A stretch of DNA of 64,000 nt from Streptomyces erythrochromogenes (lineage in GTDB: Bacteria; Actinomycetota; Actinomycetes; Streptomycetales; Streptomycetaceae): assembly GCF_036170895.1 (NCBI RefSeq), contig NZ_CP108036.1:3224001-3288000 (forward strand). Reading direction: 5' to 3'. Below, piece after piece: positions 47,396-57,576 of this stretch. Position 1 is the first letter of the stretch. Every line of letters begins with the position of its first letter. The position numbers were made by a program, and so were the translations under genes. The notes below the pieces were generated by a model, which did no database searches, had not been told where the DNA came from, and was given only the letters and a program-made list of their open reading frames with translations.

Positions 47396-47872
47396 TCAGC
47401 CGTGGTCGTAGACGGTCACCGCCACGCCGCGCTCGCACAGCGCCCCGGTGATCAGCGGCTCGACCCGCGACCAGCTGCCGCCCGCGAGCCCACAGCCGAT
47501 CCTCGGCATGTGCACGCCCGCGCCCAGCTCCACGGCATGCCCGGCCAGCGCGGCCAGACAGCGCTCCAGGGCGTCGTAGCGGATCGGCGGGCCGCCGCTC
47601 CCGATGCGCATCCCGCGCTGTCCGACCATGTTGGCCACCCACACGTCGGGCTTCACCCGCACCACCTGCACGGCGCCCAGCCCGAAGTCGTTGCCACTGC
47701 GCCCCCGGTGCCAGGCCCGGTACGCGGCCTCCGGCTCGGGCCACCGCTTCGAGACGGCCAGCACGAAGCCCTTCCCCCACCCGCCGAGGTCGTTGCAAAC
47801 GTGGGCGATGATCTTGGGCCCCTTGGCCTGGGGACTCGTAGCGTCCCCCGCGATGATCCTCAACGGCTTCAT
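47396..47872 (-). CDS. Macro-domain protein
   Basis: 158 residues, single macro domain: IIAGDATSPQAKGPKIIAHVCNDLGGWGKGFV contains the nucleotide-binding beginning (shown in part as motifs GDAT and CNDLGGWGKG) and HMPRIGCGLAGGSW the glycine-rich ADP-ribose-binding loop. Macro domains bind or hydrolyse ADP-ribose derivatives, including ADP-ribosyl esters. It is a stand-alone gene; no ADP-ribosyltransferase is adjacent. It borders the large inverted repeat. Confidence 0.9.
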   Translation of the reverse strand: MKPLRIIAGDATSPQAKGPKIIAHVCNDLGGWGKGFVLAVSKRWPEPEAAYRAWHRGRSGNDFGLGAVQVVRVKPDVWVANMVGQRGMRIGSGGPPIRYDALERCLAALAGHAVELGAGVHMPRIGCGLAGGSWSRVEPLITGALCERGVAVTVYDHG

Positions 47873-52504: not shown

Positions 52505-52951
52505 CTACGGAAGCCCCGGTGTCGGGGTCGCCCGCGTGAACTCCGCGCCGGCGACACCGCACCAGGGCACCGTCGCCACCGGCCACACCGGGCCGACCGC
52601 CTCCCCGTACTCGGTCGCGCCCGGGGCCACCCCCGGGATCCGCACCAGCGCCTGGGCGGCCCGCCGCCCCGGATCCGCCTCGGCCCGGTCACGGAACTCC
52701 ACCGTCACGACGTACGCGCCGGCGCCCTCGGCCCGCCCGGTCGCCTCCACCGCGGCCGCCACCCGCCGGCTGGCCGGATCGACACGGCAGCCGGTGACCC
52801 GTACGTCCTGGACCGCCGCCCGCGGCGGCGTCTCCTGCGGTTCACCGCCGCTCGCCCACACGTACAGGCCCAGCGGGGCGAACACCAGCAGCCCGGCGAT
52901 CGTCACCAGGCCGACCAGCCAGCCCTGCCACTTCAACGCGCTCACGCCCAT
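52505..52951 (-). CDS. Membrane-anchored protein of unknown function
   Basis: 148 residues from the ATG giving MGVSALKWQGW, with GGGAGGA upstream. One N-terminal membrane segment (LVGLVTIAGLLVFAPLGLYV) and an extracytoplasmic beta-sandwich-like domain (VTGCRVDPASRRVAAAVEAT, AYVVTVEFRDRAEADPG) with two cysteines. It resembles other actinobacterial small membrane-anchored Ig-like proteins; no function assigned. A longer open frame adds 31 unlikely residues. Confidence 0.8.
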   Translation of the reverse strand: MGVSALKWQGWLVGLVTIAGLLVFAPLGLYVWASGGEPQETPPRAAVQDVRVTGCRVDPASRRVAAAVEATGRAEGAGAYVVTVEFRDRAEADPGRRAAQALVRIPGVAPGATEYGEAVGPVWPVATVPWCGVAGAEFTRATPTPGLP

Positions 52952-53088
52952 GCCCCGATCCTCCCGGGCGGCCGCCCCGCCCACCAGCACCCGCGAACTC
53001 ACACAGCATTTCGAAGTGGGACCGCCTGGACACCTGACGTTCACTCAAGACGGCGCGGAATGTGGGTTTCCGTGAGCACGCTGCACCC

Positions 53089-54165
53089 GTGAGACGCATC
53101 CTAGGAATCCTCCTGGGCCTCCTCCTGATCGGCGGCGCGCTCTACGTCGCACTGCAGGGGCAGGAACACCCAGAATCCACGGCAACGAAGACCGTGCGTG
53201 GCGTCATCGGTTCGGAGAAGTCCGATTTCTTCCGCGACCCCGACGTCGTCAAGGCCCTTGCCGCCAAGGGCTACATCGTGAAGACGGAGACCTCGGGCTC
53301 CTGGGCGATGGACCAACTCGCCCTCAAGGACTTCGACTTCGCCTTCCCCGGCAGCAGTGAACCCGCCAAGGAGGTCGCGGCGGCCGCCGGGCTCAAGGGA
53401 GCCCAGGAGACCAAGCCCTTCTACTCCCCGCTCGTCGTGATCGCCAGGCCGGGCGCGGCCGAGGTGCTGGCCGCAGGCGGTCTCGCCGCCATGACCGGCA
53501 AGAACTCCGGGACCCTGCTGATGGGCCCCTTCCTCAAGGCCGCCGCCGAGGACCGCACCTGGCAGCAGCTGCCCGGCTCCTCCGCCCACGCCGAGCTGAC
53601 CGGCACGGTGTTCGTCAAGACCACCGACCCGGCCTCCTCCAACTCCGGCGCGCTCTTCCTCGCCGCCGCCTCCAACGTCGCGAACGGCAACAGCGTCGTC
53701 GCGGACGACGCCGGGATCGAGCGGACCGCGCCGCTGATGCGCAAGCTGATCTCCGTCCAGGGCGCCCTGGAGACCAGCAGCGACGACCCCTTCCGGGCCT
53801 TCATCAGCGGCAGCGGCGAGCCGCTGATCCTGGTGTACGAGTCCCAGGTCGCCTCGCTGCTGCTGCAGAAGCAGGACCCGGGCGAGATGGTGGTGCTCTA
53901 CCCGGACACCACCGTGAACACGGCGCACACCTTCGTACCGCTCAGCGACGACGCGAAGGAGCTGGGCTCGGTCCTGGCCACCGATCCGCGACTGCGCGAG
54001 CTGGCCGTGCTCCGCGGGTTCCGCCCGCAGGACGGCGTGGCCGAGTTCACCGCCGCCACCGCCCCGCACGCCGACCACCTCAACCCGGGACTCACCGGGA
54101 TCCGCCAGGTCGGCACACCCACCGTCAAGATCCTCATGGCGCTCGCCCAGCGCGCCAAGGGCTAG
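53089..54165 (+). CDS. Membrane-anchored substrate-binding-protein-like component of the vWA-TelA operon
   Basis: 358 residues from GTG (VRRILGILLGLLLIGGALYV): an uncleaved N-terminal membrane helix followed by a periplasmic-binding-protein-like domain outside the cell. Pattern: TVRGVIGSEKSDFFRDPDVV, GYIVKTETSGSWAMDQLALK, then FAFPGSSEPAKEVAAAAGLKG and a second lobe with ADDAGIERTAPLMRKLIS. No ABC transporter is present. It starts a run of four genes on the same strand; TelA follows after 15 nt. Probably binds or senses a small molecule or wall component rather than feeding an importer (inference). Confidence 0.85.
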   Translation: MRRILGILLGLLLIGGALYVALQGQEHPESTATKTVRGVIGSEKSDFFRDPDVVKALAAKGYIVKTETSGSWAMDQLALKDFDFAFPGSSEPAKEVAAAAGLKGAQETKPFYSPLVVIARPGAAEVLAAGGLAAMTGKNSGTLLMGPFLKAAAEDRTWQQLPGSSAHAELTGTVFVKTTDPASSNSGALFLAAASNVANGNSVVADDAGIERTAPLMRKLISVQGALETSSDDPFRAFISGSGEPLILVYESQVASLLLQKQDPGEMVVLYPDTTVNTAHTFVPLSDDAKELGSVLATDPRLRELAVLRGFRPQDGVAEFTAATAPHADHLNPGLTGIRQVGTPTVKILMALAQRAKG

Positions 54166-54180
54166 GGGGACTTCAGACAC

Positions 54181-55368
54181 ATGACCTTGACACCTCCCGA
54201 GGACACCCCGCTCGTCCTCAGCGCCCCCGAGCCCGTCGCCCCCGTCCGCAAGGAGCAGGCCGCCGGACTCGTACCGCTCCAGGACGGCGTCCACGACGAG
54301 ATGGCCCGCAGGGCCGGAGAGTACGTCGGCTCGCTCGCCGGGACCGACGCCCGCTCCCCCGAGTTCGCGCAGCGCATCGGCGAGATCACCGCACTCGGCT
54401 CGGCCGACATCCGCACCGCCGCCCAGCAGTCCAACCGGATGCTGGAGCGGGCCGTGCGCTCCCTCGGCTCCGACGGCGGCGGCGACGCCCAGGCGCGCGT
54501 CGCCGGCTCCCTGGTCGAGCTGCGGCGCACGGTCGAGGACCTCGACCCGCGGGACACGCCCGTCAAGGGCGCCCGCAAGCTGCTGGCGAAGCTGCCGGGC
54601 GGCAACAGGTTCCGCGACCACGTGGCGAAGTACGCCTCCTCGCAGGCCACCCTGAACCGGATCGTGGGGGCGCTGCGCAGCGGCCAGGACGAGCTGCGCC
54701 GCGACAACGCGGCCCTGCACACCGAGCGCTCCCGACTGTGGGAGACGATGGGCAAGCTCCAGGAGTACGCGGTCCTCACCGAGGCCCTGGACGGCGCCGT
54801 CGCCCAGCGGGTCGCCGAGACCGAGCACACGGACCCGCAAGGAGCCGACGCGCTGCGCGCGGACGTGCTCTTCCCGCTCCGGCAGAAGCACCAGGACCTG
54901 CTGACGCAGCTGGCCGTCTGCGCCCAGGGCTACCTGGCGATGGACGTGGTCCGGCGCAACAACGACGAGCTGATCAAGGGCGTCGACCGGGCGGCCACGA
55001 CCACCGTCTCGGCGCTGCGCATCGCGGTGATGCTGGCCTCGGCGCTGGAGAGCCAGCGCACGGTGATCGAGCAGGTCAACGCCCTGAAGGGAACCACGGA
55101 GGGCCTGATCCGGGGCAACGCGGACATGCTGTCCGCGCAGAGCGGCGAGATCCAGCGGATCGCGGCCGATCCGGCGGTGGGCGCGGAGACCCTGCGGACG
55201 GCCTTCGCGCAGATCTACAAGACGCTGGACGCGATCGACACCTTCAAGGTGCAGGCCACCGAGAACATGGCGGCGACGGTGGAGTCCCTGGCCGGTGAGC
55301 TGCAGAACGCGTCGGCGTACCTGGCGCGGACGCGGACCGCCGGTGCCCTTGAGGGCGGTGCCCTGTGA
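54181..55368 (+). CDS. telA: TelA-family toxic anion resistance protein
   Basis: 395 residues. Soluble, almost entirely alpha-helical protein of the TelA/KlaA family: RRTVEDLDPRDTPVKGARKL, KYASSQATLNRIVGALRSGQ, ELRRDNAALHTERSRLWETM and the C-terminal ESQRTVIEQVNALKGTTEGL. Members are linked to tellurite resistance, phage inhibition and the Ter stress system. The gene overlaps the next one by 4 nt (GTGA), so translation is coupled. No terB, terC or terD gene is in the window. Confidence 0.92.
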   Translation: MTLTPPEDTPLVLSAPEPVAPVRKEQAAGLVPLQDGVHDEMARRAGEYVGSLAGTDARSPEFAQRIGEITALGSADIRTAAQQSNRMLERAVRSLGSDGGGDAQARVAGSLVELRRTVEDLDPRDTPVKGARKLLAKLPGGNRFRDHVAKYASSQATLNRIVGALRSGQDELRRDNAALHTERSRLWETMGKLQEYAVLTEALDGAVAQRVAETEHTDPQGADALRADVLFPLRQKHQDLLTQLAVCAQGYLAMDVVRRNNDELIKGVDRAATTTVSALRIAVMLASALESQRTVIEQVNALKGTTEGLIRGNADMLSAQSGEIQRIAADPAVGAETLRTAFAQIYKTLDAIDTFKVQATENMAATVESLAGELQNASAYLARTRTAGALEGGAL

Positions 55369-56978
55369 GGGGGCGTACGGGCCGCGCCTGGATCGCCGGT
55401 CTGGTCCTCGCCTCGCTCGTCGGCGCGAGCGGCTGCACCTCCGACGGGCCCGCGGGGCCGGCGGAGACGGCCCACCGGGAGGGAACCCTGCGGGTGCTGG
55501 CCTCCAGCGAGCTCGCGGACATGGAGCCGGTGCTGGAGCAGGCCCGAAAGACGACCGGCGTCACCGTGAAGCTCACGTGGTCCGGGACGCTGGACGCCGC
55601 CGAGCAGGTCGCCTCCGGGCAGGCCGACGGCAAGTACGACGCGATCTGGCTCTCCTCCAACGACTACCTGCGGCTGCGGCCCGAGGCCGTCGGAAAGCTC
55701 TCCAGCGAGACCCCGGTGATGTCCTCGCCCGTCGCCCTCGGGGTGAAGCCGGAGGCGCTGGCCCGGCTCGGCTGGCAGCCCGGGGAGGTGACCTGGCCGG
55801 CGGTGCACGAGGCCGTCGCCGCCGGGAAGCTGACGTACGGGATGACCGACCCGGTGCGCTCCAACTCCGGTTTCTCCGCGCTGGTCTCGGTGGCCTCGGG
55901 GCTGTCGGGGGCGCAGGCGGCGCTGAGCGACGCGGACGTGAAGGCGGCGACGCCCCGGCTGAAGGAGTTCTTCGCCGGGCAGAAGCTGACGTCGGGCTCC
56001 TCGGGCTGGCTCGTGGCCGCGTACGGCAAGCGCGGGGACGTGGACGCGCTGGTGAACTACGAGTCGGTGCTGCTGTCCATGAACCGTGACGCGAAGGGCT
56101 CCGGCGCCCCGCTGACGGTGGTCCGGCCGCGCGACGGTGTGGTCACGGCCCACTACCCGCTGACCCTGCTGACCTCGGCCCCGGCCGGGGCCCGTGATGC
56201 GGGGCGGGCGCTGACGGACTACCTGCGCGGCCCGCAGGCGCAGCAGGCGATCACCGGGCAGACCTTCCGCCGGCCGGTCGCGGCCGGGGTGGCGCCGGCC
56301 GCCGGGCTGGACCAGGAGAAGCGGCGCGAGCTGCCGTTCCCCGGCTCGCGCGTCGTCGCAGACGGGCTGCTGGCCAGTTACGAGAACGAGCTGCGCAGGC
56401 CGTCGCGGACGGTGTACGTGCTGGACACCTCGGGTTCGATGAGCGAGGAGGACCGCATCGGGCGGCTGAGGTCGGCGCTCACCGACCTGACGGGCACGGG
56501 CGCTTCGGGTACGGGTCGGCGCTTCCGGGACCGCGAGGAGGTCACGCTGCTGCCCTTCGGGTCGAAGGTGAAGGAGGTGAACACGCACGTGGTGGAGCCG
56601 GGCAATCCGGGGCCGGCCCTGGACGCGATCCGCCGGGACGTGAAGTCGCTGGAGCCGGACGGCGGGACGGCGGTCTACGGCAGCCTGGAGGCGGCGTACG
56701 AGCAGCTCGGCAAGGGCGGCACCGACGCCTTCACCTCGATCGTGCTGATGACGGACGGCGAGAACACCGAGGGCGTCGGGGCCGAGCACTTCGACTCCTT
56801 CTACGCCAAGCTGCCCCAGGCGCAGAAGCGGACGCCGGTCTTCGCCGTGCTGTTCGGCGACTCGGACCGCAAGGAGCTCACCCACATCACCGAACTGACC
56901 GGCGGGAGGCTCTTCGACGCCACCGGCGGGAAGGGTTCGCTGGCCGGAGCCTTCGAGGAGATCCGTGGCTACCAGTAG
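55365..56978 (+). CDS. Lipoprotein fusing a substrate-binding domain to a von Willebrand A domain
   Basis: 537 residues. Lipoprotein signal with lipobox GASGC (Cys at about 23), an ABC-type substrate-binding fold at about residues 40-325 (TLRVLASSELADMEPVLEQA, AEQVASGQADGKYDAIWLSS) and a vWA domain at about residues 345-535 with an intact metal site: VYVLDTSGSMSEEDRIG, the Thr/Ser of GGTAVYGSLEA and LMTDGENTEG. The whole protein is outside the membrane. GTG overlaps the TelA stop, and the last gene overlaps its end by 14 nt, so all three are translated together. Confidence 0.9.
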   Translation: MRGRTGRAWIAGLVLASLVGASGCTSDGPAGPAETAHREGTLRVLASSELADMEPVLEQARKTTGVTVKLTWSGTLDAAEQVASGQADGKYDAIWLSSNDYLRLRPEAVGKLSSETPVMSSPVALGVKPEALARLGWQPGEVTWPAVHEAVAAGKLTYGMTDPVRSNSGFSALVSVASGLSGAQAALSDADVKAATPRLKEFFAGQKLTSGSSGWLVAAYGKRGDVDALVNYESVLLSMNRDAKGSGAPLTVVRPRDGVVTAHYPLTLLTSAPAGARDAGRALTDYLRGPQAQQAITGQTFRRPVAAGVAPAAGLDQEKRRELPFPGSRVVADGLLASYENELRRPSRTVYVLDTSGSMSEEDRIGRLRSALTDLTGTGASGTGRRFRDREEVTLLPFGSKVKEVNTHVVEPGNPGPALDAIRRDVKSLEPDGGTAVYGSLEAAYEQLGKGGTDAFTSIVLMTDGENTEGVGAEHFDSFYAKLPQAQKRTPVFAVLFGDSDRKELTHITELTGGRLFDATGGKGSLAGAFEEIRGYQ

Positions 56979-57576
56979 GGCGACCGGGGTCCTGACGTAC
57001 CTGGAGTCGAGGAAGAACCTGGCCGGCTCGGCCTGCGGGGTGGCCGGGCTGGCCCTCACCCTGGCCGGGGTGGCCGGTGCGTACTGGCCGCTGGTGGTCG
57101 CCGGGCTGTACGGGGCGGGCGCGCTGATCGCCCCGCCGGAGCGGACGGCGCCGCCGCCCTTCGATCCGCGTGAGGAGCTCGGGGTCCTGCGCGAGGACTT
57201 CGGGCGGCTGCGCGGGTACGTCGCCGGGGTGGAGCTGCCGTCGGGGCCCGGGGAGGCGCTCGCGGAGCTGCTGGAGCTGTACGGGGCGCTGCTGGAGCCG
57301 GGGTGGGTGGCGGATGTGCTGGCGGCCGACCCGGAGGCGGTGCACACGGTGTCGCGGGCGGTCCGGCAGGACGTGCCGGAGAGCGTGGACGCGTACAACC
57401 GGACCCGCTGGTGGAGCCGGATGGCGCCGGGCGGCGAGTCGCCGGAGCGGCATCTGGAGCGGCAGCTGGGGCTCCTGCGCGAGGAGGCGCAACGCGTAAC
57501 GGCGGGCCTCCACGAGGTGGAGGCCCGCCGTCAGCAGACGCACACGACCTACCTGGAGGAGCGCGGACGCTCCTGA
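56965..57576 (+). CDS. Membrane protein closing the vWA-TelA operon
   Basis: 203 residues from a GTG within the end of the vWA gene. Two membrane segments in the first 65 residues (ACGVAGLALTLAGVAGAYWPL and VVAGLYGAGALIAPP), then a cytoplasmic, mostly helical domain of about 140 residues with acidic and basic heptads (REELGVLREDFGRLRGYVAG; HLERQLGLLREEAQRVTAGL). No family recognised; it could couple the external modules to the helical TelA protein. Confidence 0.82.
   Translation: MATSRATGVLTYLESRKNLAGSACGVAGLALTLAGVAGAYWPLVVAGLYGAGALIAPPERTAPPPFDPREELGVLREDFGRLRGYVAGVELPSGPGEALAELLELYGALLEPGWVADVLAADPEAVHTVSRAVRQDVPESVDAYNRTRWWSRMAPGGESPERHLERQLGLLREEAQRVTAGLHEVEARRQQTHTTYLEERGRS

Follow-up and report, generated by a model that had tools for sequence, protein, structure and literature searches.

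What can a TelA protein be doing in an operon that also encodes two extracellular binding proteins and no transporter? The question is raised by four adjacent genes at positions 53089..57576 of a 64,000-nucleotide stretch of the Streptomyces erythrochromogenes genome (the window; contig positions 3224001-3288000 of the 8.6-Mb genome), all of which lie on the plus strand. Gene 1 (53089..54165; 358 aa, GTG start) encodes a solute-binding-type protein with a membrane anchor, gene 2 (54181..55368; 395 aa) encodes TelA, gene 3 (55365..56978; 537 aa) encodes a putative lipoprotein in which a binding domain is fused to a von Willebrand factor A (vWA) domain, and gene 4 (56965..57576; 203 aa) encodes a membrane protein that we take as a diverged XpaC. 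The initial annotation, based on the nucleotide sequence and its open reading frames (ORFs), had described the operon as an envelope surveillance or stress/defence device and had placed it in the context of the Ter stress network. Here we show that the four genes are the known XpaC-TelA envelope-stress pair together with a dedicated extracellular binding half, and that this combination is widely conserved.

The close packing of the genes is exact to the base: genes 1 and 2 are separated by a gap of 15 nt, genes 2 and 3 overlap by 4 nt, and genes 3 and 4 overlap by 14 nt (56965..56978). These overlaps suggest translational coupling; the stoichiometric synthesis that had initially been read from them goes further than the spacing does. 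An in-frame GTG at 53062 offers an alternative start for gene 1, and the relatives of the gene agree better with the start at 53089.

With regard to the extracellular half, the fusion of a second binding domain to a vWA domain is borne out by Pfam. Residues 42-300 of the gene 3 protein (55488..56264, Pfam bounds) match SBP_bac_11 with 68.6 bits and residues ~346-533 (56400..56963, bounds from Pfam and NCBIfam) match VWA_2 with 34.4 bits; NCBIfam gave nothing above cut-off for the operon proteins. The gene 1 protein scores 23.5 bits with SBP_bac_11, slightly under the cut-off of 25, and a profile comparison shows that it is homologous to the binding domain of gene 3 (probability 99.4, E 1.4e-21). 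The two families have DP..SNSG and YE stretches in common, and these are among the most conserved columns of both. The topology of the module is predicted from hydropathy: gene 1 has a single N-terminal hydrophobic stretch that would serve as an anchor, and gene 3 has a signal-like stretch followed by ..ASGC, which by eye is a weak lipobox. The metal site of the vWA domain is intact, as had been noticed initially, and its residues (DxSGS, T and D) are the same in all 35 relatives that were aligned. Among solved structures, the gene 3 profile found vWA domains from a wide range of proteins and gave weak matches to proteins that bind solutes or iron; the sole match of the gene 1 profile, a repetitive viral protein, was judged to be noise. 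Based on these data, genes 1 and 3 probably encode outward-facing proteins that bind a small ligand.

Both extracellular modules share the SBP_bac_11 family with the solute-binding proteins of ABC transporters, but the operon differs from such transporters by lacking a permease and an ATPase, by containing two related copies of the binding domain, and by the vWA fusion. In agreement with the initial annotation, a Pfam scan of nine window proteins found no ABC genes, and hence neither the permease nor the ATPase of a linked transporter, and no TerB, TerC or TerD, the search for Ter genes being confined to these nine proteins. A pair of similar binding domains with no accompanying transporter would be explained better by ligand sensing or holding than by import. 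Lone proteins annotated as substrate-binding and VWA domain-containing have the same domain order as gene 3 and match its profile with probability 100, but many of them have no TelA or XpaC nearby (e.g. L023 and L119-L121).

Gene 2 is TelA (PF05816, 279 bits versus a cut-off of 30), and it is the only TelA match in the whole genome. A single-sequence search identified no solved relatives. Among solved structures, the TelA and XpaC profiles found nothing but short proteins, helical or designed (with best E values of 0.0031 for TelA and 0.001 for XpaC). The idea that TelA might be a hidden relative of PspA was rejected, the profile match being unconvincing (probability 13, E 0.0021, 58 columns).

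The identity of gene 4 required a chain of profile matches. Its N-terminal hydrophobic region corresponds to about two spans, in line with the two-pass membrane helper that had been proposed, and is followed by a helical part. Gene 4 matched no Pfam family at E 1 and hence has no direct match to PF10112, the XpaC family ('5-bromo-4-chloroindolyl phosphate hydrolysis protein'); among the matches listed, its best ones with a name are Streptomyces proteins. However, 7 of the 10 gene 4 counterparts scanned with Pfam do match PF10112, at E values of 1.9e-21 to 7.8e-31. The Bifidobacterium counterpart reached 29.4 bits (cut-off 29.8) and that of family f40 22.5 bits, and two of the ten, those of Atopobiaceae L157 and G139 L107, did not match. 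A profile built from 15 actinobacterial gene 4 proteins was searched on 5412 ORFs. Beyond its own kind, every ORF that it retrieved before the first unrelated one (0.18) occupies the expected position in another lineage: Gulosibacter (6e-7, an over-long ORF), L144 (3.5e-5), f19 (2e-4), f40 (6e-4), Atopobiaceae (8e-4) and others up to 4e-3. The same profile matched two XpaC genes from TelA loci in which genes 1 and 3 are absent (3.4e-5 and 1.4e-4), and a TelA-linked gene in G139 at 7.7e-45. In the opposite direction, a Bacillota XpaC profile retrieved L144 (2.6e-18) and f40 (~1e-30), and actinobacterial gene 4 proteins only at 0.6; the direct profile comparison of gene 4 with XpaC was moderate (probability 64, E 6.7e-5). 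Through this chain we take gene 4 as a diverged XpaC, which gives the two-pass helper a more specific identity.

Is the four-gene grouping more than a local accident? Within the genus, TelA scored above the Pfam cut-off in 30 of 81 genomes, and a close ortholog of gene 3 (E ≤1.3e-190) is present in the same 30, adjacent to TelA; because of this coincidence, the grouping is not due to chance. When weaker paralogs are included (E 1e-10), gene 3 is found in 37 of the 81 genomes. Gene 1 precedes TelA in 29 of the 30 loci, not being visible in G349, where the TelA match is partial, and gene 4 follows gene 3 in all 30. There is also a paralogous Streptomyces operon (L113, L114, L115, L116, L123 and L022) containing relatives of genes 1 and 3 (27-40% identity). 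Its third gene encodes a protein of ~257 aa with an N-terminal membrane stretch, the operon has neither TelA nor XpaC, and its hosts G320, G324 and G361 have no TelA anywhere in the genome.

The patchy presence in the genus (30 of 81) would suit an anti-phage defence device, the defence part of the initial proposal, and the sub-membrane structures of TelA/TerF are described as preventing phage entry in a jumbo-phage review (PMC7824862). However, none of the four proteins matched a PADLOC model, the Streptomyces query retrieved no relative of gene 3 from viral contigs, and the operon occupies a stable chromosomal place, with the phosphoenolpyruvate (PEP) carboxykinase gene ≤1.5 kb downstream in 19 of the 30 genus loci. 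We therefore consider a role in phage defence highly improbable.

To assess conservation beyond the genus, loci were found in named genomes by alignment of gene 3, and the best 80 of at least 95 confirmed loci were scored with profiles built in this analysis, the genes having to lie within 6 kb on one strand. It should be noted that these 80 named loci were ranked against a gene 3 from outside Streptomyces and are a skewed sample rather than a census, and that all locus counts begin from gene 3 and hence favour loci that contain it. All four genes are present in 60 of the 80 loci (40 Actinomycetota, 18 Bacillota and 2 others), and genes 1 and 3 together with XpaC in 72. The order of the operon studied here, gene 1-TelA-gene 3-XpaC, occurs in 32 loci (Streptomyces, Lentzea, Amycolatopsis, Kibdelosporangium, Nonomuraea, Kutzneria and others). 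Its circular permutation, gene 3-XpaC-gene 1-TelA, occurs in 25 loci, i.e. six of Bifidobacterium, 18 of Bacillota including Oceanobacillus arenosus, and one metagenome-assembled genome (MAG) labelled Geobacteraceae. Two loci (Gulosibacter and an Atopobiaceae MAG) have the order gene 1-gene 3-XpaC-TelA, and one (Methylobacterium) the order TelA-gene 3-XpaC-gene 1. Isolated exceptions, the Geobacteraceae MAG among them, could be the result of misbinning. The occurrence of one set in four orders means that its content is kept while its order is free, and the genes thus co-occur well outside close relatives. A gene 4 start codon that is in frame and overlaps the end of gene 3 by 14 nt is present in 34 of the 40 actinobacterial named loci examined and in none of 34 other loci. 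Mirror-tree correlations were 0.92-0.97; they were not controlled for species and are not taken as proof.

In a sample of 296 genomes taken from the phylum, TelA exceeded the cut-off in 13, and gene 3 (E ≤4.5e-40) was present in eight of these, adjoining TelA except in G228. There, TelA is found at the end of one contig and gene 3 at the end of another, with gene 1 broken across the two. The class of genome G077, which is probably Coriobacteriia, its TelA grouping with that of an Atopobiaceae record, was represented by 197 genomes: gene 3 was found in 15 and TelA in 42, and all 15 gene 3 genomes contain TelA, adjacent in 14 and separated at contig ends in G228.

In a TelA tree of 50 rows, the TelAs of four-gene loci fall in two main parts. 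One is actinobacterial; the second comprises Bacillota, Bifidobacterium and f40, mixed with TelAs from loci without genes 1 and 3. The four-gene state may therefore either be old, with occasional loss of the outer half, or have been assembled more than once.

The DNA upstream of the operon may indicate when it is expressed. A two-unit repeat resembling a PHO box, GTTCACC-N4-GTTCACC (53028..53045, plus strand, 11 of 14 positions), is located 61 nt 5' of the gene 1 start. GTTCACC is reported as the most conserved PHO-box motif in Streptomyces coelicolor (PMC4415409). A PHO box consists of direct 11-nt repeats with this core; the repeat at the operon matches at 11 of 14 positions and recurs in relatives: among 26 scored Streptomyces loci, the repeat lies at -61/-62 in 25, and at -67 in the remaining one, owing solely to a differently set start. 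Its mean score in these loci is 11.2 of 14, compared with 8.0 after dinucleotide shuffling and 8.3 when the pattern is reversed. This count covers 26 of the 30 genus loci, G349 (gene 1 not visible), L057 (cut short), L061 (other upstream layout) and G128 being excluded. Related species share upstream DNA, so that the Streptomyces loci are not independent and other genera provide the stronger test. Among 42 actinobacterial named loci in which gene 1 could be placed (excluding Bifidobacterium, L157, L179, L199 and L201), 13 scored at least 12, versus 0.36% of 2520 control windows taken within these loci; the 13 are 5 of 16 Streptomyces and 8 of 26 other loci. The top scores were obtained for Kibdelosporangium and Kitasatospora (14 of 14), three Lentzea (13), and one Lentzea, Amycolatopsis and Saccharothrix (12); in Lentzea L188 and L197 the gene 1 frames are over-long and the true upstream DNA lies outside the scored stretch. 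The uncontrolled scores of six Bifidobacterium loci (10-13) and four f19 loci (7-10) are not the basis of any claim. One of the Bifidobacterium loci, L129 of Bifidobacterium saguinibicoloris, has a match of 13 of 14 before gene 3, and the other five have 10-11, likewise without a control.

AfsR sites resemble PHO boxes, and PhoP is therefore the likeliest candidate regulator but not the sole one. Judging from the recurrence of the repeat, the operon is probably under PhoP/phosphate-starvation control in several Actinomycetes. In Streptomyces, phosphate starvation triggers antibiotic production (PMC7244524).

A second element, GGAAT-N18-GCT (53057..53082, plus strand), includes the dyad GGAA-N7-TTCC. 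A block of the form GGAAY-N17-19-KCT is present at about -32 in 25 of the 26 Streptomyces loci, and the dyad in 24. This block may be an extracytoplasmic function (ECF) sigma promoter or an operator, and the start of gene 1 may be leaderless since no ribosome site is visible by eye. In the own genome, one perfect and seven one-mismatch sites were found, versus six for the reversed-pattern control, and no regulon was inferred.

A PHO-box-like operator in front of two proteins with solute-binding folds would also fit nutrient scavenging, in which starvation-induced genes 1 and 3 keep a phosphate-bearing nutrient close to the membrane and pass it to an ABC transporter encoded elsewhere, TelA and XpaC merely supporting the surrounding membrane. 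In 13 of the 80 named loci, an ORF resembling an ABC ATPase was found at a distance of ≤6 kb by a motif test, and in G077 the set is next to an NMT1-type ABC transporter. However, the same motif test found no ABC gene in the other 67 loci, and both the vWA fusion and the constant association with TelA and XpaC are unlike a transporter. We thus regard scavenging as unlikely. The narrower notion that the operon is a transport remnant is rejected, because a permease and ATPase are not consistently linked to the set elsewhere.

Five genomes of the phylum sample contain a variant of the module. In these, a gene 3 relative (probability 100, E 4.3e-45) is located near PspA and a two-pass coiled-coil protein, in five of five. 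A gene-1-like anchored protein was found by BLAST in four of the five (probability 95.5, E 1.6e-8), and a CbbX-like AAA+ ATPase in four. The PspA identity was obtained by running PF04012 on one of the five proteins (E 1e-32). The two-pass protein was also considered as an XpaC, and there was no profile match. The neighbourhoods (L025, L026, L027, L117 and L118) are operon-like and belong to Euzebya/Egibacteraceae-type genomes, four of them being Euzebya tangerina, Nitriliruptorales and two Egibacteraceae, which we take to be members of the class Nitriliruptoria. The variant resembles the phage shock protein (PSP) system in having PspA, a two-pass coiled-coil protein and an AAA+ ATPase near the homologs of genes 1 and 3; the operon studied here differs in that Pfam finds no PspA among its four genes, and the TelA and PspA profiles do not match each other. 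The CbbX-like ATPase is also encoded 3' of TelA in two of the 80 named loci (L150 and L152). Genome G139 has two TelA genes (L106:7549-10583 and L107:7296-9268), both without genes 1 and 3; one has a 4-nt overlap with a CbbX-like AAA+ ATPase gene (49% identity), and the other is followed by a gene-4-type XpaC. The terms TelA and von Willebrand were not matched in the main text of two PSP surveys (PMC11237479 and PMC9239133).

Which known network is the closest to the operon? TelA is shared with the Ter/TelA network, in which vWA proteins are reported as well and TelA forms sub-membrane structures (PMC7824862). However, in the present operon the vWA domain is joined to a binding domain and is predicted to lie outside the cell, and we dismiss Ter membership given that no TerB, TerC or TerD was seen among the nine scanned proteins. 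The nearest network is the XpaC-TelA pair of Bacillota, with PspA as an alternative neighbour. In Bacillus subtilis, xpaC-yaaN (TelA) is reported to be a core sigma-W operon and pspA to be sigma-W-dependent (PMC3498285). In Listeria, lmo1966-1967 (XpaC and TelA) rise with a bacteriocin, and disruption of lmo1967 is reported to increase susceptibility four-fold to nisin and two-fold to tellurite (PMC12791056). In addition, xpaC is reported to be up 7-fold in an Enterococcus faecium liaR mutant and to be among the CesSR genes of Lactococcus lactis (PMC10269926). The operon shares with this pair a TelA encoded together with an XpaC-type two-pass protein, the setting of the pair being envelope stress; it differs by adding two extracellular binding proteins, one of them fused to vWA, by a strongly diverged XpaC and by a PHO-box-like operator. 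Since the xpaC and telA genes respond in the envelope-stress regulons of Bacillota, an envelope role, as proposed initially, would fit. We found no publication on the four-gene set in the literature listings, and a 2012 survey of Ter/TelA neighbourhoods may already note part of it.

These data also bear on two further explanations. The outer proteins might be metal-dependent assembly or adhesion factors, positioned by TelA and XpaC, for wall polymers such as teichoic acid whose make-up alters when phosphate is limiting. An extracellular vWA domain with an intact metal site, phosphate control, and the reported links of TelA and XpaC to cell-wall-active drugs in Bacillota would all agree with such a wall machinery. 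However, no wall-synthesis gene recurs in the loci that were inspected, by eye and not systematically, and we consider this explanation somewhat less likely than scavenging. The binding domains might instead trap tellurite- or arsenate-like anions outside the cell while TelA limits the damage inside. SBP_bac_11 includes oxyanion-binding proteins, and the name of TelA and the two-fold tellurite effect of the Listeria disruption point in the same direction. However, the reported effect of that disruption on nisin susceptibility was the larger one, and no metal or oxyanion resistance gene was seen nearby. Protection against toxic oxyanions thus appears improbable, below the wall explanation.

We favour, at roughly even confidence, a trans-envelope sensing module as the product of the operon: it would detect a small ligand, perhaps one that bears phosphate, and deploy TelA beneath the membrane. 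Outside the membrane, two homologous binding domains, that of gene 1 on a transmembrane anchor and that of gene 3 on a lipid anchor, would capture the same kind of small ligand. The leading candidate is phosphate or a phosphate-bearing fragment of wall or lipid, a ligand of this type being favoured because the operon carries a PHO-box-like operator, to which PhoP would bind. The vWA domain would make a metal-dependent contact, most likely with gene 1, that depends on the ligand state. XpaC, with its membrane hairpin and helical cytoplasmic part, could then dock TelA and couple it to the outer assembly. Signalling would run inwards; that the ligand signal is passed through the membrane protein to TelA is pure inference. 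TelA, in turn, would gather as a sub-membrane scaffold and protect or remodel the membrane when the envelope is starved or damaged. A broader version, which we find possible but doubtful, holds that the module represents a so far undescribed sensor class, in which paired binding domains and vWA read how much of a phosphate-bearing ligand is present at the cell surface and the XpaC hairpin switches a sub-membrane scaffold, TelA in most lineages or PspA in Nitriliruptoria, under the control of PhoP in many Actinomycetes.

Several observations weigh against the favoured view. Most of the sequence evidence is co-occurrence rather than mechanism. TelA is missing from 20 of the 80 named loci, which are all of the incomplete ones and eight of which lie at contig ends; 15 of these 20 genomes were searched, and TelA was found elsewhere in eight and not at all in seven. 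No gene 3 match was present in 5 of the 13 TelA genomes of the phylum sample or in 27 of the 42 TelA genomes of the G077 class. The absence of TelA from some loci and genomes indicates that the outer pair can live without it, and in the paralogous Streptomyces operon the relatives of genes 1 and 3 are followed by a different third gene. On the TelA tree, the four-gene label requires four changes, at least three of which are forced by well-supported branches. As to regulation, the repeat is at background in the Streptosporangiales loci (8-10) and in several others (8-9), about 20 of the 42 loci, and the term TelA was not matched in three Pho papers (PMC4415409, PMC7244524 and PMC7866108).

The operon is flanked on its 5' side by an RDD-family gene and an unnamed minus-strand ORF, and on its 3' side by a gene that Pfam identifies as PEP carboxykinase. 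The divergent ORF 52505-53044 (minus strand, 179 aa) encodes a protein with a membrane stretch that matches no family in Pfam or NCBIfam; the start listed for this ORF overlaps the upstream elements of the operon, and a later one seems more probable. ORF 47396-47872 (minus strand, 158 aa) is macro-domain-like by eye. In other genomes, Ser/Thr-kinase-like ORFs were seen by eye near gene 3 relatives at loci without TelA (L169:5693-6802, L201:3496-5367 and L024:10191-11891).

TelA and XpaC are widespread proteins whose job is unclear, and they are named for a tellurite and a dye-phosphate phenotype, respectively. Their recurrent pairing with two extracellular binding proteins gives them an input side and raises a testable question about the ligand. 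The PHO-box-like operator would link the module to phosphate starvation, and the PspA variant links it to the best-known membrane-protection protein of bacteria. If the broader version holds true, TelA and PspA would be interchangeable effectors of one outer sensor.

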